From Candidatus Roizmanbacteria bacterium (GTDB lineage Bacteria; Patescibacteriota; Microgenomatia; UBA1406; GWC2-37-13): DNA of 64,000 bases. The notes beneath the pieces are model-generated. The model saw only the letters and a list, made by a program, of their open reading frames with translations. It had not been told where the DNA came from and ran no database searches. This document shows positions 6,949 to 51,600 of the stretch, in pieces (position 1 is the stretch's first letter; each line of letters starts with the position of its first letter). Position numbers and translations under genes: made by a program. The stretch is taken from positions 1 through 64,000 of the forward strand of contig JAAXWC010000003.1 in assembly GCA_013335175.1 (NCBI GenBank), in the 5' to 3' direction.

Positions 6949-6993
6949 AAGGTACAGTGTATCGAGAAATACGTTCGTTGTCCAGAGAAATAT

Positions 6994-7265
6994 ATTCTCA
7001 ATCGTCACCGTCATCCTCGACATAATCAAAGATTCATAGATCGTCATTGTCATCCTCGATCTGATCAAAGATTCATAGATCATCATTGTCATCCTCGACC
7101 TGATCAAAAATTCATAGATAGTCACCGTCATCCTCGATATAATCAAAGATTCATAGATCGTCATTGTCATCCTCGACCTGATCAAAAATTCATAGATAGT
7201 CACCGTCATCCTCGATATAATCAAAGATTCATAGATCGTCATTGTCATCCTCGACCTGATCGAGG
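6994..7265. repeat. Tandem array of 39-bp repeats
   Basis: Six full 39-bp units start at 7032, 7071, 7110, 7149, 7188 and 7227, each beginning ATTCATAGAT, with a degenerate unit before them from about 6994. Variant A (GTCATTGTCATCCTCGACCT) and variant B (GTCACCGTCATCCTCGATAT) alternate over the later units, giving a 78-bp higher-order period. Because 39 is divisible by 3, both strands stay open as 13-residue repeats, which explains the long spurious frames here. There are no unique spacers, so it is not CRISPR. It lies between a DUF2142 gene and the rmlC promoter. Confidence 0.9.
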
Positions 7266-7324
7266 ATCCATGGGCAATAGCATATACCTTTCTCAGGAAA
7301 TAATGAGGTGAGAATTTTGTAGGA

Positions 7325-23266: not shown

Positions 23267-23857
23267 ATGAAAAAAAGAAGGATACTCAATATTGGATGCG
23301 GCAAAACACGTATCCCAAATTCTCTTGGTTTGGATATCGCGCCCATTCCTGAGTATGTCGATGTAGTGCACGACCTCAATGTATTCCCCTATCCATTTTC
23401 AAGCGCATCGTTTGAGGAAATACATATGTATCATATTTTAGAGCATCTGGAAGATCCATTGAAAGTTTTACAGGAAGTTTACCGTTTGTTGAAGCCCGGC
23501 GGATACGCGTTTATTCGTGTTCCTCATTTTTCTTCGAAGGGTGCGTTTACCGACATTACTCACAAACGGCCATTTGGATACAATTCTTTTGATTGTTTAG
23601 AAAAGCAAAATGCACAACATTACTATACGATGAGTAGTTTTTTCATTGAGGAAAAAGAAATACGCTATTTAGGGCTTTTACAAGACCTTTCCTACCATGG
23701 TACACAATCTACCTCGGTTGTGCTTGAATTTGCAAAACTTGTGGAACGCGGAATGAATCTACTTATTCGTCTCTCCCCTCTTCTGTTTGAACGCTTGTGG
23801 TGCTATTGGGTGGGAGGTGCTACTGAGGTGTATATAAAACTGCGGAAAGAGGAATGA
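23267..23857 (+). CDS. Class I SAM methyltransferase
   Basis: A 196-residue methyltransferase of the Methyltransf_11 type: RILNIGCGKTRIPNSLGLD (motif I), IHMYHILEHLEDP and VYRLLKPGGYAFIRVPHFSS. These appear next to GT2 genes in surface-glycan loci and probably methylate a sugar or carrier. TATAAT lies at 23250-23255, 11 nt before the ATG. Repeats begin right at its stop codon. Confidence 0.82.
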   Translation: MKKRRILNIGCGKTRIPNSLGLDIAPIPEYVDVVHDLNVFPYPFSSASFEEIHMYHILEHLEDPLKVLQEVYRLLKPGGYAFIRVPHFSSKGAFTDITHKRPFGYNSFDCLEKQNAQHYYTMSSFFIEEKEIRYLGLLQDLSYHGTQSTSVVLEFAKLVERGMNLLIRLSPLLFERLWCYWVGGATEVYIKLRKEE

Positions 23858-24040
23858 CGACGCAACGTCCGGAATGACGACGCTGAGCCTGAAATGACGC
23901 TGCTACTCCCTTTCACAACGATTCCGGATGCGCTAACGCTTACCGGAATGACGACGTTGAGCCTGGAATGACAACCTTGAGGCCGGAATGACGTCAGCGG
24001 TGCCTGCACTCTCAGAAGATACTACATTGTCATTGTCATT
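23852..24040. repeat. Palindromic repeat cluster upstream of GIY-YIG element
   Basis: Several GGAATGAC fragments and one long-loop palindrome (ACAACGATTCCGG ... CCGGAATGAC, about 23916-23951) precede the element. The block of about 110 bp at 23884-23993 recurs almost exactly at 24534-24644 on the other side of the element. A short TTGTCAT triplet repeat (24025-24040) abuts the left end. Confidence 0.88.
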
Positions 24041-24452
24041 GTCATTCCGGCTTGCCCGGCGACCGTAAGGAAGTCCCCGTATGAAAAAGGGCATGTGGTC
24101 GAGGGAAATCGTTGTTTAGGGTACACTACTTCCGATGCAAAAAGCAGGATACGTCTACATCATGGCAAATACTAGACCCACGCTCTATGTGGGAGTAACC
24201 AGTAATCTCATCAAGCGCGTATACGAACACAAACAGGAGAAAGGATCTAAGTTTACGGCTCGATATCTCCTCACGAAACTTGTGTACTACGAGGTACTTC
24301 CTACCATTGATGCCGCTATCATTTGTGAAAAGCAACTCAAGAACTTATCCAGAAAAGAAAAGCTTGATTTAATTAGTAGGAATAATCCCTCGTTTGCCGA
24401 TTTATACGATTCCATAAAACAGTAACAACGATTCCGGACAAGCCGGAATGAC
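24041..24452 (+). mobile_element. GIY-YIG palindromic element, copy 1
   Basis: A 412-bp unit bounded by inverted ends: left GTCATTCCGGCTTGCCCGG and right CCGGACAAGCCGGAATGAC. Inside are a structured left arm (24060-24118) with GGTCGAGGGAAATCGTTG, a TACACT promoter box and one GIY-YIG gene. The right end is the same sequence as the solo palindromes scattered through the window. A nearly identical copy, also 412 bp, is at 34312-34723 in opposite orientation. No clear target duplication is seen. Mobility is inferred from the two near-identical copies. Confidence 0.8.
24135..24425 (+). CDS. GIY-YIG nuclease domain protein (element-borne)
   Basis: A 96-residue single-domain GIY-YIG nuclease of the UPF0213/YhbQ type. 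The GIY part is YVYIMA (residues 6-11), YIG is LYVGVT (17-22), the catalytic Arg is in RVYEHK, and a Glu-containing helix (CEKQLKN) follows. There is no DNA-binding module, so targeting would depend on the short fold itself or a host partner. Start: TACACT ends 7 nt before the ATG. It is the only gene in a 412-bp element with palindromic ends. Copy 2 at 34339-34629 differs at three residues. Confidence 0.88.
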
Positions 24453-24645
24453 GACGTTACTCCTTTTTTCACAACGATTCCGGATGCGCTAACGCTTACC
24501 GGAATGACGACCTTGAGCCTGGAATGACGACGCTGAGCCTGAAATGACGCTGCTACTCCTTTTTTCACAACGATTCCGGATGCGCTAACGCTTACCGGAA
24601 TGACGACGTTGAGCCTGGAATGACAACCTTGAGGCCGGAATGACA
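24453..24645. repeat. Palindromic repeat cluster downstream of GIY-YIG element
   Basis: Two long-loop palindromes (ACAACGATTCCGG, a GCGCTAACGC loop, CCGGAATGAC; about 24471-24505 and 24567-24604) are joined by GCCTGGAATGAC fragments. The stretch 24534-24644 duplicates 23884-23993 with only small length changes in a T-run. It ends 22 bp before the next gene's stop. Confidence 0.88.
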
Positions 24646-24666
24646 ACAAAGTTGCGCCCAACGAAG

Positions 24667-34311: not shown

Positions 34312-34723
34312 GTCATTCCGGCTTGCCCGGAATCGTTGTTACTGTTTTATGGAATCGTATAAATCGACAAATGAGGGATTATTTATACTAATTAAATCAA
34401 GCTTTTCTTTTCGGGATAAGTTCTTGAGTTGCTTTTCACAAATGATAGCGGCATCAATGGTAGGAAGTACCTCGTAGTACACAAGTTTCGTGAGGAGATA
34501 TCGGGCTGTAAACTTAGATCCTTTCTCCTGTTTGTGTTCGTATACGCGCTTGATGAGATTACTGGTTACTCCCACATAGAGCGTGGGTCTAGTATTTGCC
34601 ATGATGTACACGTATCCTATTTTTTGCATCGGAAGTAGTGTACCCTAAACAACGATTTCCCTCGACCACATGCCCTTTTTCATACGGGGACTTCCTTACG
34701 GTCGCCGGGCAAGCCGGAATGAC
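34312..34723 (-). mobile_element. GIY-YIG palindromic element, copy 2
   Basis: The second 412-bp copy, inverted relative to copy 1 (24041-24452). It shares the left arm, promoter box, gene and right end almost base for base; the right end has GCTTGCCCGG where copy 1 has GCTTGTCCGG. The high identity implies recent spread or gene conversion. Confidence 0.8.
34339..34629 (-). CDS. GIY-YIG nuclease domain protein (element-borne)
   Basis: A 96-residue GIY-YIG nuclease, the copy-2 product. It differs from the 24-kb copy only at residue 4 (Ala to Ile), in ISRNNPS (here ISINNPS) and in SFADLYD (here SFVDLYD). All catalytic landmarks (YVYIMA, LYVGVT, RVYEHK, CEKQLKN) are kept, so both copies may be active. 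TACACT ends 7 nt before the ATG, inside the element, so it carries its own promoter. Confidence 0.88.
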
Positions 34724-34815
34724 GATGCTGTGCCTGGAATGACAAGCTTGAGCCTGGAATGATAACCTTGAGCCTGGAATGACAGGAAAGAGCGGGGATG
34801 ACGGGGGGACATGGA
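34724..34815. repeat. GCCTGGAATGACA repeat fragments
   Basis: Three tandem-like GCCTGGAATGACA/GATAA fragments follow copy 2 on its left side, like those flanking copy 1. A short GGGGATGACGGGGGG stretch ends the cluster just before the surface-protein stop codon. Confidence 0.75.
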
Positions 34816-48083: not shown

Positions 48084-48175
48084 AATGGAAGGATTATATC
48101 AGATAACGGGGGCAGAAGTCAAAGGGAAAAAACAACGATGCAACGGCAATGAGAAATAAACGATTATGCACCCGT

Positions 48176-48640
48176 CATTTCGGTAAGCGTTAGCGCATCC
48201 CCACAGAACCTCGCCTATCGGCAGGCAGGCAAGGGGAAAAATTTTACATTGGATTCCCCTGTCCAGGGGAATGACGACGTTGAGCCTGAGCAACGATTTC
48301 CCTCGACCATTTGCCTCTTTTTACGGGGACTTCCTTACGGTCGCCCGACAAGCGGGAATGACGATGCATTGTCATTCCGGTAAGCGTTAGCGCATCCGGA
48401 ATCGTTGTGAAAAAGGGTATTGTCATTCCACAGAGCCTCGCCTATCGGCAGGCAGGCAAGGGGAAAAATTTTACATTGGATTCCCCTGTCCAGGGGAATG
48501 ACGACGTTGAGCCTGAACAACGATTCCCGTCAAGCGGGAATGACGACGTTGAGCCTGAGCAACGATTTCCCTCGACCATTTGCCTCTTTTTACGGGGACT
48601 TCCTTACGGTCGCCCGACAAGCGGGAATGACGAAGAGGAG
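48176..48640. repeat. Complex composite repeat cluster
   Basis: This fills the 48084-48659 gap. Two composite units occur (48201-48362 and 48428-48632). Each has CACAG(A)GCCTCGCC, a GGCAGGCAGGCAAGGGG tract, a hairpin ATTCCCCTGTCCAGGGGAAT, and the left arm of the GIY-YIG element (CAACGATTTCCCTCGACC ... GCGGGAATGAC). A long-loop palindrome lies at 48371-48409. The second unit also contains a palindrome at 48517-48544 with the variant stem ATTCCCG/CGGGAAT. No gene is present. Confidence 0.92.
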
Positions 48641-48659
48641 CCTGAGAGCGAGAAGAATA

Positions 48660-48953
48660 TCATTTCAAAATCAACTTTTTCTTAAATCCTCCTCGTTTCG
48701 CGGCCTTTTGCTTTCGCATCATTTCGAGCTGTCCCACATTGCATCCTTGTACTGCTGCAAGCGCGTAAACTACTTCCAGAATATCGGCAAGTTCTTCAAG
48801 TTTTTGCGATGCTTTAAATTCATCGCACTCTTCCTGTAATTTCTCCATCAATTTTTCTCGATATTCTTTTTCATCGGCAGTATGAAACTGGGGATTCTTT
48901 CCTTCCTGACGCATTATTTCGGGAATTATATCTCGAACGAGTTTTGAGTACAT
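48660..48953 (-). CDS. MazG-like NTP pyrophosphohydrolase domain protein
   Basis: A 97-residue all-alpha protein of the MazG/PRA-PH type: YSKLVRDIIPEIM, then KLQEECDEF (EExxE metal motif), LEELADILEVVYAL (ExxD motif) and KRGGFKKK. Such proteins hydrolyse non-canonical or excess nucleotides. TATAAT ends 6 nt before the ATG. Confidence 0.82.
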   Translation of the reverse strand: MYSKLVRDIIPEIMRQEGKNPQFHTADEKEYREKLMEKLQEECDEFKASQKLEELADILEVVYALAAVQGCNVGQLEMMRKQKAAKRGGFKKKLILK

Positions 48954-48983
48954 GAGGTTATTATATCACTCTGTTTAGAGATG

Positions 48984-49271
48984 TTAGTACGACGTTTTTA
49001 TTTTATCATTCACGAATTGGTGAAGTACAGAAGAAACAAGTGTTTGATACGGCATTCCTGCTTCAGCAGCTCTCCGCTTCAGCTTATATACATCACTGGT
49101 AGACAGCCTGATATTGATATTCTTATTTTTTTCCAAATAATTTACAGCCGCCTCTTTTGCTTCAGTTAGCAGCTTTTTTTCGTCATCTGCTGTTTGCATC
49201 TCTTCTTGTTCGAGTACATCCAGCAATTCTTTTTCCTCGTTATCGAGTGGTTCAAATAAATTTTTTTTCAT
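48984..49271 (-). CDS. CopG/BrnA-like antitoxin
   Basis: A 95-residue protein with a charged N-terminal region that would wrap the toxin and a C-terminal ribbon-helix-helix: NINIRLSTSDVYKLKRRAAEAGMPYQTLVSSVLHQF. This matches CopG-type antitoxins of BrnT/RelE-family systems. It lies 21 bp downstream of the toxin gene on the same strand. Confidence 0.75.
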   Translation of the reverse strand: MKKNLFEPLDNEEKELLDVLEQEEMQTADDEKKLLTEAKEAAVNYLEKNKNINIRLSTSDVYKLKRRAAEAGMPYQTLVSSVLHQFVNDKIKTSY

Positions 49272-49292
49272 ATAGATAATTCAAACTCATAA

Positions 49293-49559
49293 TTATGGTA
49301 AATATTTTTTGGTTCTTTTTCTATCAGGAAAAATCGTTTTTAAAATTAAGATATCGTTTTCTCGCTTCACAAACGGAACCACGTACACATAATCGTTGAT
49401 ATTCACTATAAAGAAAAGTTGATGCCGATATTTTACATTCAGTGGTTGCTCCACCGATATTAGTTTTCCTTCTTGTATCGCAACAACGATATCTTCAAAA
49501 CAAATTCCTCGTTGTTGTCGCAGCACACTATTCTTTTCTTCATTCCACTCAAAATTCAT
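49293..49559 (-). CDS. BrnT-like toxin
   Basis: An 88-residue basic protein starting FEWNEEKNSVLRQQRGICFEDI, the BrnT (RelE-fold RNase) N-terminus. In family members a downstream sheet with RxxY...R forms the active site; here the sheet is KYRHQLFFIVNINDYVYVVPFVKR. Toxin first then antitoxin is the usual brnTA order. The promoter has an inverted repeat, suggesting autorepression, and the transcript would be leaderless. Confidence 0.75.
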   Translation of the reverse strand: MNFEWNEEKNSVLRQQRGICFEDIVVAIQEGKLISVEQPLNVKYRHQLFFIVNINDYVYVVPFVKRENDILILKTIFPDRKRTKKYLP

Positions 49560-49565
49560 ACCTTC

Positions 49566-49594
49566 ATTTTATGACAAATAGTATGCAATGTCAA
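49566..49594 (-). promoter_or_regulatory. TA-operon promoter with inverted repeat
   Basis: TTGACA (49594-49589), a 17-bp spacer, TAAAAT (49571-49566), 6 nt to the ATG. An inverted repeat TGACA-12 nt-TGTCA spans the spacer from the -35 box to the -10 box, a natural operator site for the antitoxin. Confidence 0.7.
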
Positions 49595-49668
49595 TGTTAT
49601 TTTGGATGAATATTTGAATATTCCAAACGTCAATTGGTTTTTATTGATACTGTATAATTATCCTGTCT

Positions 49669-50622
49669 ATGAAGAATATACTATTTTGGCATACTTTGAA
49701 TAAATGGTCAGAATTAACTCTCAAAATCTACTTTTATGGAACACTTTTATTGGCGATTTTATTCTTTATTCTGATGATGTCCACCAGTATTTTTCCGTAC
49801 TCCCCTATTCCATCATTATTGCCGATAATCGGAGCACCCTTATTTTTTTGTTTTTTGATTATTGTTCCGTTCAATACTTTTATTCTCAGTTCTCTCTTTT
49901 TGCTTTCTAAGGTTCTTTCTTTGGTAAAGCACGGGAAAAGAATTTCACATCATTTTTTTTCTCAGCAACAGATGTCCCCGATACTCCGTGTTTATTTTTT
50001 TGTTCTCGTTCCGTATGTTATTTTTCTGCTCATCGTTCAATTCACATCATTTGTATCTTCTGCAACAGGCATGTTTTATGTTTATTCATTTATTGTCTTA
50101 TTTATTGCTTGGTATGTTGTTTTTTTTATAGGATATTTTGCTTTAAAGAAACATATTTTCAATAAATATACAATTCTTCCGAAGATATTATCCATAATGG
50201 TAGCCCTGGGATTATGTGGATTTTTCTGTTATTACGCTTATATATGGTATGATGAAACTCAGCCTCATGAATACTTTACATTCCGTCTCGATGATCCCAA
50301 AGGGATCTACAAACTAAACTACGATGGAGATTACTGGCTTACCTATTATGTCAAAAAGACAGATTGTTTTGATGTTTGGGGTAAAACAACCTGTCGGGAA
50401 TTTTTAGATAAAAAAGGTAATACGGCAATTACTGAAACACCAGTCGATCTTACCCCTTATCTGGATAAAGATATTGAAATTACGGGCTCATTTGTCCCTT
50501 CACATGGGGCCACAACAGGGAATGATAAAAAATTGTGTGTGAAAGGGAAATGTTCCGTAAGTCCTGGGCCGGGGTATTGGTATGCTTCTCCTTTAAAAAT
50601 AAAAACGATACGGTTGAAGTAG
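49669..50622 (+). CDS. Membrane protein of unknown function
   Basis: A 317-residue protein with five to six membrane helices in residues 1-195, followed by an outer domain of about 115 residues with three Cys (KTDCFDVWGKTTCRE, CVKGKC). No family recognised. TATAAT lies 10 nt before the ATG. It stands alone between two repeat clusters. Confidence 0.7.
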   Translation: MKNILFWHTLNKWSELTLKIYFYGTLLLAILFFILMMSTSIFPYSPIPSLLPIIGAPLFFCFLIIVPFNTFILSSLFLLSKVLSLVKHGKRISHHFFSQQQMSPILRVYFFVLVPYVIFLLIVQFTSFVSSATGMFYVYSFIVLFIAWYVVFFIGYFALKKHIFNKYTILPKILSIMVALGLCGFFCYYAYIWYDETQPHEYFTFRLDDPKGIYKLNYDGDYWLTYYVKKTDCFDVWGKTTCREFLDKKGNTAITETPVDLTPYLDKDIEITGSFVPSHGATTGNDKKLCVKGKCSVSPGPGYWYASPLKIKTIRLK

Positions 50623-50700
50623 GGGCACCTCTTGTGTCCGCCCCTACAGAAAATCTCCGCGCGACAGCCACGTTTGACGTGGTAGAGAATCATTGTTCAG

Positions 50701-50900
50701 GCGCAACGTCGTCATTCCGGTAAGCGTTAGCGCATCCCCACAGAACCTCGCCTATCGGCAGGCAGGCAAGGGGAAAAATTTTACACTGGATTCCCCTGTC
50801 CAGGGGAATGACGATGTTGAACCTGGGCAACGATTTCCCTCGACCATTTGCCTCTTTTTACGGGGACTTCCTTACGGTCGCCCGACAAGCGGGAGTGACG
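50701..50900. repeat. Composite repeat, third copy
   Basis: This lies in the 50623-50910 gap. It repeats the composite unit of 48 kb: a GTCATTCCGG long-loop start truncated into the GCCTCGCC tract, the ATTCCCCTGTCCAGGGGAAT hairpin and a GIY-YIG left-arm copy (50828-50899), ending GCGGGAGTGAC. Confidence 0.92.
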
Positions 50901-50910
50901 ATGCTATCAT

Positions 50911-51600
50911 TTACCCCTCAAACACCTTATCCCATTTTCCTTCGGAGATGATGTCATCGAGGTTATGGTAGCTTTTGTTAATGCGGTGATCGGTGAGGCG
51001 ATTCTGGGGGAAGTTATAGGTGCGAATTTTGTCTGCCCGTTCCCCTGTTCCTACATCTTTCACAAAGGAATTGACAACCCCTTTTGTTTTTTCCTCTTCG
51101 AGTTGATAGAGTTTTCCCAAAAGTAAATCCATTGCAATTTTTCGATTTGCTTCCTGGTACCGTTCTTGCGAGGCGGTGGTAACTAATCCGGTTGGTTTAT
51201 GCGTTAATCGAACTGCTGTAGCAACCTTATTCACGTTTTGGCCACCATGCCCACCTGCTCGAAAAAACTGCCAGTCTAAATCTGCAGGATTGATGCGTAC
51301 ATCGCTGGAAATAATCTGAGGAAGTACTACGATAATGGCAGTTGAGGTGTGAATGCGCCCTTTTCGTTCAGTTGTGGGAATGCGCTGCACCCGGTGTACA
51401 CCCGTTTCACCTTTAAAAAGTTTATAGGCATTTTCTCCGCTAATTTTAATAATATCTTCATCTAAATAGATATATTTAAACCCTCGTCTTTGGGCAAAAC
51501 GAATATACGAAAGAAGAAGCTCTCGCTCCCAGATTTTGGATTCGTCGCCTCCCACCCCGGGGCTTGCTTCAATGATGACAATGTTTGGATTAATTTGCAT
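50911..51600 (-). CDS. prfA: Short peptide chain release factor 1
   Basis: A 229-residue release factor. The stop-codon-reading PxT-type tripeptide is PTT (residues 75-77, in [16 protein letters not shown]) and the catalytic GGQ is at 119-121 ([10 protein letters not shown]); [14 protein letters not shown] is also RF1-like. The usual N-terminal helical domain of about 110 residues is absent: the protein begins where domain 2 begins in full-length RF1, and an in-frame TAA stands a few codons upstream. A repeat cluster lies beyond the start. It may still be functional, since mitochondrial and other short RFs work without domain 1. Confidence 0.85.

Follow-up and report, generated by a model that had tools for sequence, protein, structure and literature searches.

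Gene-less arms in a Roizmanbacteria contig: solo copies of a palindromic repeat, with a GIY-YIG nuclease as candidate partner enzyme

INTRODUCTION

A stretch of 64,000 nt from Candidatus Roizmanbacteria bacterium (assembly GCA_013335175.1, contig JAAXWC010000003.1, positions 1 to 64,000; referred to as the window) carries two copies of a 412-bp element in which a gene for a GIY-YIG nuclease lies between a long and a short arm. Between 48 and 51 kb, the long arm recurs three times without the gene. This raises the question of whether the solitary arms are left over from complete elements or whether the repeat exists in its own right. We consider it fairly likely that each of the three arms represents a solo copy of a dispersed palindromic repeat, with the GIY-YIG nuclease as the candidate partner enzyme which would spread the repeat units and unit-gene-unit blocks. 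The nuclease is proposed for this role because such repeats often bracket its gene in several phyla.

RESULTS AND DISCUSSION

Full elements and the GIY-YIG gene

The two full elements, designated A and B, are identical at 401 of 412 positions. Their components are:

24041 to 24452, plus strand: full element A, 412 bp (long arm, leader, GIY-YIG gene, short arm)
24041 to 24114, minus strand: long arm of element A
24135 to 24425, plus strand: GIY-YIG nuclease gene of element A, 96 aa, PF01541
24426 to 24452, plus strand: short arm of element A, directly adjoining the stop codon
34312 to 34723, minus strand: full element B, 412 bp
34650 to 34723, plus strand: long arm of element B
34339 to 34629, minus strand: GIY-YIG nuclease gene of element B, 96 aa, PF01541
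34312 to 34338, minus strand: short arm of element B

The encoded proteins match PF01541 with E-values of 9.8e-15 (element A) and 1.1e-14. When the window protein is aligned with 21 homologues found in relatives (n = 22), the residues Y8, Y18, G20, R28, H32, E65, and N84, which we take to have catalytic roles, are invariant. Judged by the domain match and the conserved motif positions, the predicted product is a GIY-YIG nuclease. By sequence profile at E <= 0.01, its sole structurally solved relatives are the UPF0213 GIY-YIG proteins PDB 1zg2 (5.2e-10) and 1ywl (1.8e-6), which are annotated there only as hypothetical. When one subfamily member (L102) was used as query, no match was obtained among phage records.

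At the head of element A (24029-24046), GTCATT occurs three times in tandem, as though a joining of ends or a slippage had taken place at the tag. Arrays of half-units (like GGAATGACGACGTTGAGCCT), partly with 20-bp spacing, adjoin the full elements at 23849-23995, 24443-24647, and 34714-34786.

Solo arms and composite blocks

The three gene-less arms listed by the initial annotation are indeed present, at coordinates which required correction by at most 2 nt. They lie among further units:

48291 to 48362, plus strand: solo long arm 1, 72 nt, an interrupted palindromic unit with its head GTCAT at the right end
48560 to 48631, plus strand: solo long arm 2, 72 nt, without any difference from arm 1
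50828 to 50899, plus strand: solo long arm 3, 72 nt, differing from arms 1 and 2 at 1 base
48252 to 48275, minus strand: ATTCCCC..GGGGAAT hairpin unit, with further ones at 48479-48502 and 50789-50812
48371 to 48407, minus strand: plain unit with a longer inner loop
48518 to 48544, plus strand: plain uninterrupted unit (CAACGATTCCCG..CGGGAATGAC), 15 nt from arm 2
48173 to 48367, plus strand: composite block, copy 1, beginning with CGTCAT and ending just beyond ATGAC
50710 to 50904, plus strand: composite block, copy 2, ending just beyond GTGAC

Each half-motif of the arm has five matches in the window, namely the three solo arms and the two full elements (with 1 mismatch for the right-half motif within the full elements), compared to 0.06 and 0.00 matches in shuffled sequence. 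The arms are accompanied by ATTCCCC..GGGGAAT hairpins in composite blocks, as had been described, and the two copies of the 195-bp composite block are identical at 189 of 195 positions.

The gene-side end of the arms is CAACG. The 20-nt gene leader that follows CAACG, searched with up to 4 edits, is found in the window solely at the two full elements, and a tblastn search for a GIY-YIG protein remnant over 47.6-51.6 kb gave a best E-value of 0.66. The arms thus lack the gene, and no relic of leader or protein was detected near them.

Structure of the repeat unit

The short arm is a plain hairpin composed of GTC, ATTCCGG, a 5-nt loop, CCGGAAT, and CGTTG. The basic form of the unit is GTC-ATTCCSG(loop)CSGGAAT-CGTTG; in the plain window units, the stem has 7 bp with AT at its base. 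The long arm corresponds to such a plain unit with a module of 45-47 nt (CCCTCGACC...GGGGACTTCCTTACGGTCG) inserted in the stem near its inner foot, and the unit at 48518-48544 is the uninterrupted counterpart of the solo arms. Plain units fold as hairpins, with z-scores of -3.24 (short arm of element B), -4.84 (48371-48407), and -3.38 (48518-48544). The possibility that the arm forms one single long hairpin was rejected, since folding gives no support for it. In two unit types, the 45-47 nt module is found at one structural point, immediately before AATC or GATC.

The window contains 42 GTC-tagged units versus three each in the reversed and complemented controls; because GTC was a search criterion, the unit lists of window and genome are not an independent test of the tag.

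Repeat and gene across the genome

The union of two genome searches places the long-arm module at 18 sites, only two of which directly flank the GIY-YIG gene. A third one (C32:67277) is located ca. 160 nt upstream of the C32 gene copy, with two other units in between. On their left sides, seven of the 18 modules have the CAACGATT tail, eight have a GGATC tail, and three have others, while the 14 bases at the head side occur in 13 different forms. Among these module forms, the CAACGATT-tailed one is the only one that lies directly beside the GIY-YIG gene.

When the genome was searched with element B and its flanks, three copies of the gene body, at least 6 solo long arms (84-93% identical to the element arm), and at least 31 solo short arms were found. 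The solo-arm counts are lower bounds, because 40 of 87 candidates were scored, and the short-arm count omits four rows (one for the arm belonging to the C32 gene copy, two inverse long-arm matches, and one tail-only match). That the short arm is solitary more often than the long one had not been described in the initial annotation. The third gene copy (C32) is 80% identical at the DNA level; a short unit replaces its long arm, and homology to the window element ends within the inner ends of the units. The general unit pattern (GTC-AT...AT-C), which does not require complementarity and some matches of which may be nested, matched 292 times in the genome compared to three times for a control pattern.

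Since solo arms and the 292 unit matches far exceed the gene copies, arm-only copies are the usual state of these repeats in the source genome, and the gene-bearing form is the exception. Moreover, the repeat stands by itself and the gene is an occupant between two repeats, because only two of the 18 modules are at the gene, the short arm occurs alone at least 31 times, and a long arm is missing from the C32 gene copy.

These data bear on the reading of the solo arms as deletion derivatives of the GIY-YIG element, in which one arm remained after loss of the gene and the other arm. The six solo long arms with 84-93% identity to the element arm, in the very genome that carries the element, are in its favor. 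It is opposed by the many module copies, which fall into two main tail types and numerous head-side forms, by the lack of any gene or leader relic in the window, by the occurrence of both arms alone, the short one more often, and by the C32 gene copy without a long arm. We therefore regard an origin by gene deletion as very improbable. From the proposal of non-autonomous derivatives in the initial annotation, one part, that the arms are non-autonomous kin of the element, agrees with the broader findings and is plausible; their origin by gene loss is unsupported, both by the comparison of the arms with the full copies and the genome-wide class, and by the search for gene relics (tblastn near the arms, leader search in the window). 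A derivative resembling a miniature inverted-repeat transposable element, with both ends kept and the interior lost, was considered as well and rejected: one arm only is present, and relics of leader and gene are lacking.

A comparable picture was obtained with relatives. The element of genome G036 with its flanks was compared to genomes G036 and G007, and 47 of 52 DNA matches are confined to one arm (one place being counted on both strands); left out of the 47 are five rows, namely the query itself, two whole-element matches, one gene-only match, and one match elsewhere. The exact long-arm pattern was found in one of 372 genomes sampled from the class, which is the source genome; this suggests that the long form is a locally elaborated version of a unit with wider distribution. 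Another GIY-YIG lineage of the source genome (L017; protein identity 51%) is flanked on either side by a stem type of its own, ATCCTCGCG.

Bracketing of the nuclease gene

The subfamily was analyzed in 80 named loci from species genomes (the best 80 of at least 562 confirmed) and in 23 loci from relatives. In a strict test, units with GTC outside an AT-starting stem had to lie in head-out orientation no more than 100 nt from the gene on either side. Such head-out bracketing was directly observed for 28 of the 80 named loci and 13 of the 23 relatives (41/103), and the mirror orientation on both sides for two in each set (4/103). If AC-starting stems are also allowed, the numbers are 32/80 and 13/23; the AT counts are used here. 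According to the record titles, the 28 bracketed named loci presumably represent Patescibacteria, Pseudomonadota, Omnitrophota, Chloroflexota, Bacteroidota, Bacillota, Thermotogota, the Melainabacteria line, and others; most of them are metagenome assemblies and possibly contaminated.

Bracketing was not seen for any of 282 other open reading frames (ORFs) of at least 100 aa in the subfamily loci, for any of 7 distant GIY-YIG genes, or for any of 35 GIY-YIG genes outside the subfamily in subfamily-bearing genomes. The 35 include four of the 7 distant genes; 36 loci had been scored, and L233 (63.5 bits) was set aside as a bracketed member of the subfamily.

The hairpins might simply serve as terminators or in regulation, and their abundance between genes might account for the bracketing. 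Units are common in these genomes, and single units do flank a few other ORFs (four upstream and four downstream of the 282). Against this stand the complete lack of bracketing among the 282 ORFs and the 35 other GIY-YIG genes, the outward orientation bias, and the position of the tag outside the stem, and we consider the explanation exceedingly improbable.

The tag was also recovered when hairpins were identified without using it. Nearest hairpins (n = 125) were found in 206 flanks, and GTC is outside the stem in 61 of them, mostly as TGTC (36) or CGTC (20). The stem starts with AT in 69 of the 125, and a CCA tail is present in 31; in the window, the main type has the tail CGTTG and other units have CCA. 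The 5-nt stem starts upstream and downstream of the gene agree in 25 of 41 pairs, compared to a mean of 8.75 and a maximum of 18 in 2000 shuffles.

By analogy with GTAG-tagged repetitive extragenic palindromic (REP) sequences, another candidate for the mobilization of the units is a Y1 transposase resembling the REP-associated tyrosine transposases (RAYTs) that serve those REPs, with the GIY-YIG gene as a hitchhiker caught between two units. In its favor, five PF01797 matches are present in the source genome, and ORFs of 220 and 224 aa account for two of these. None of 19 Y1 genes from 10 genomes (five of the 19 from the source genome) is flanked by units, which makes this explanation quite improbable. 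The 19 include a broken gene and another truncated at a contig end; they come from a set of 20 stretches, of which L202 was unused.

Insertion between sufB and sufC

In Azospirillum lipoferum 4B, a GIY-YIG gene together with four units is positioned between sufB and sufC. The corresponding spacers of A. ramasamyi, A. oryzae, and Azospirillum sp. B510 have 91, 87, and 129 nt and contain neither the gene nor a GTC-tagged unit; that of strain B510 carries a different inverted repeat. Shinella sp. PSBB067 carries another subfamily member, again between sufB and sufC, and the stem found on either side of it is a different one.

In Sphingomonas parapaucimobilis (L204), the sufB-sufC spacer harbors a DUF559 gene between inverted repeats resembling CCCCTCCCCT..AGGGGAGGGG, perhaps another nuclease-hairpin pair. 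This gene was considered as a second partner of the units described here and rejected, because other inverted repeats and no GTC-tagged unit are present in the flanks inspected.

Unit numbers in relatives

A total of 57 relatives, all from outside the source genus, were sampled. A DNA search in genus g8 for a base-precise empty site retrieved solo arms and no orthologous empty site. Presence of the subfamily was scored at a match of at least 57 bits, an arbitrary line (G032 is at 54 bits, L211 and L227 are at 55). For the 22 relatives with the subfamily, the median is 78.5 units above control (range 13 to 310), and for the 35 without it, the median is 10 (range -6 to 73).

GIY-YIG nucleases are classical homing enzymes. 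The main rival to the preferred reading is that the nuclease gene homes into existing repeat pairs which are spread by something else, the repeats being both target and flanks. Consistent with this, the C32 copy has different arms, and its identity stops inside the inner unit ends, as if the gene had been copied between unit pairs. Three observations argue against homing: the three Azospirillum relatives lack tagged units as well as the gene, the unit number tracks the presence of the subfamily, and the only other enzyme family tested, Y1, is unbracketed. On homing as such, the data show the presence or absence of the gene between species. We consider homing into existing repeats rather unlikely.

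Assessment of the nuclease as partner enzyme

Several results weigh against our proposal that the nuclease spreads the units. Strict bracketing is complete in fewer than half of the loci (41/103), and in only two of the 11 plasmid-collection loci (11 of 33 records). In the window itself, elements A and B pass the strict test on the short-arm side only; they fail on the long-arm side because the long arm is split. Long arms fold no better than shuffled sequences (z-scores of -0.02, 0.21, and 0.02) and for this reason may be inactive forms. In Neisseria gonorrhoeae, units flank the gene on both sides in the opposite orientation, and in A. lipoferum units are present on both sides and the strict test is failed. 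Because the Azospirillum spacers have diverged, the junction is not base-precise, and a target duplication was not seen in these diverged spacers. The association of unit number with the subfamily (Mann-Whitney p = 3e-9, Spearman 0.78) ignores kinship, and one relative (G028) has 73 units without the subfamily.

GIY-YIG enzymes cut by hydrolysis, so that any copying would require host repair, which is a further point against the proposal. Under our proposal, the nuclease would most likely move the repeats by recognizing the foot of its cognate palindrome, with GTC outside and AT at the stem base, and by cutting at this foot. Host repair would copy units, unit pairs, and unit-gene-unit blocks into the break or into new sites. 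The nuclease would act in trans on solo units, and the solo arms would be non-autonomous passengers, not remnants of gene loss. The 195-bp composite block at 48.2 and 50.7 kb would be such a passenger.

Comparison with known systems

Free-standing GIY-YIG homing endonucleases are single-gene mobile elements. The window gene differs from these in that it is flanked by two palindromic repeats with many solo copies.

CGTC-tagged REPs have been reported from several phyla; they show no association with transposase genes, and a transposase dedicated to them is apparently missing (Di Nocera et al., 2013, PMC3733652, here and below as far as covered by the excerpts used). Neisseria dRS3 and Rickettsia RPE-4/6 are named members, the tag is CGTC or else TGTC/CCTC, the tail fits CCA in most members, and the four described families have stems of 8-9 bp (PMC3733652). 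The units analyzed here share with them the unpaired CGTC/TGTC end tag, the AT stem start, a high copy number, the occurrence of dimers, and the distribution over several phyla; a short CCA tail is present in part of the units. In contrast, the plain window units have a stem of 7 bp and the main window type has the tail CGTTG; the long arm is further set apart by being split by the 45-47 nt module and by not folding as a palindromic hairpin. Tag and AT stem base thus agree with the CGTC-tagged REP superfamily and the stem length does not. Because stem and main-type tail differ, the window units are, by sequence, assigned only at the level of this superfamily, outside of the four described families.

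With the REP/REPIN (REP doublet forming hairpin) and RAYT systems (Bertels and Rainey, 2011, PMC3116915; Nunvar, 2010, PMC2817692; likewise in excerpts), the window system shares dispersed palindromes, inverted pairs, repeats that bracket a gene, and non-autonomous copies which far exceed the gene copies. It differs by having a 96-aa GIY-YIG nuclease instead of a HUH/Y1 transposase and the tag GTC instead of GTAG. An assignment as a REPtron (RAYT plus REP) was rejected, because the flanked gene codes for a GIY-YIG protein and none of the 19 Y1 genes tested is flanked by units; the unit-gene-unit composite may rather be viewed as a REPtron analogue with an unrelated enzyme.

It is, in our estimate, an even choice whether the small GIY-YIG subfamily is the dedicated enzyme of CGTC-tagged repeats across many phyla, forming a second, independent REP system that uses a hydrolytic nuclease in place of an HUH transposase and in which each lineage serves its own stem. 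If so, REP systems would have at least two origins, with enzymes unrelated to each other, and a role could be assigned to many genes whose sole annotation is "GIY-YIG nuclease family protein". What moves CGTC-tagged repeats was left open by their describers (PMC3733652), and a word search of that paper did not find GIY-YIG; with a candidate nuclease of 96 aa, the question becomes experimentally simple. Among the matches listed for the open-licence PMC literature (without preprints), no link between GIY-YIG and REP was found, and prior publication elsewhere is possible; in the excerpted text of PMC9465073, both terms occur, unrelated to each other.

Other GIY-YIG arrangements and window features

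Other GIY-YIG genes of the source genome are located at tRNA genes: C32:98303 (L013) at tRNA-Lys, C31:3436 and 3767 (L021 and L016) at tRNA-Gln, and C32:7075 (L014) at tRNA-Pro. In the C31 tandem pair, the 5' part of tRNA-Gln (GCCCGGTCGTCTAACGG) precedes each gene and occurs again in the complete tRNA. Including these four, 16 of the 36 control GIY-YIG loci are within 200 nt of a tRNA gene. The tRNA-associated genes look like a second GIY-YIG insertion class which duplicates the 5' part of the tRNA. In one relative (G004:C2:272-4396), 12 GIY-YIG matches with identical scores are arranged in tandem with a period of 357 bp.

At gathering scores, the window has no Rfam match. A release factor 1 (RF1)-like ORF of 229 aa (50911-51600) lacks the N-terminal part, as its match starts at position 106 of the 347 positions of the RF1 profile. 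A tandem array with a 39-bp period is located at 6962-7312 and overlaps with ORFs of both strands.

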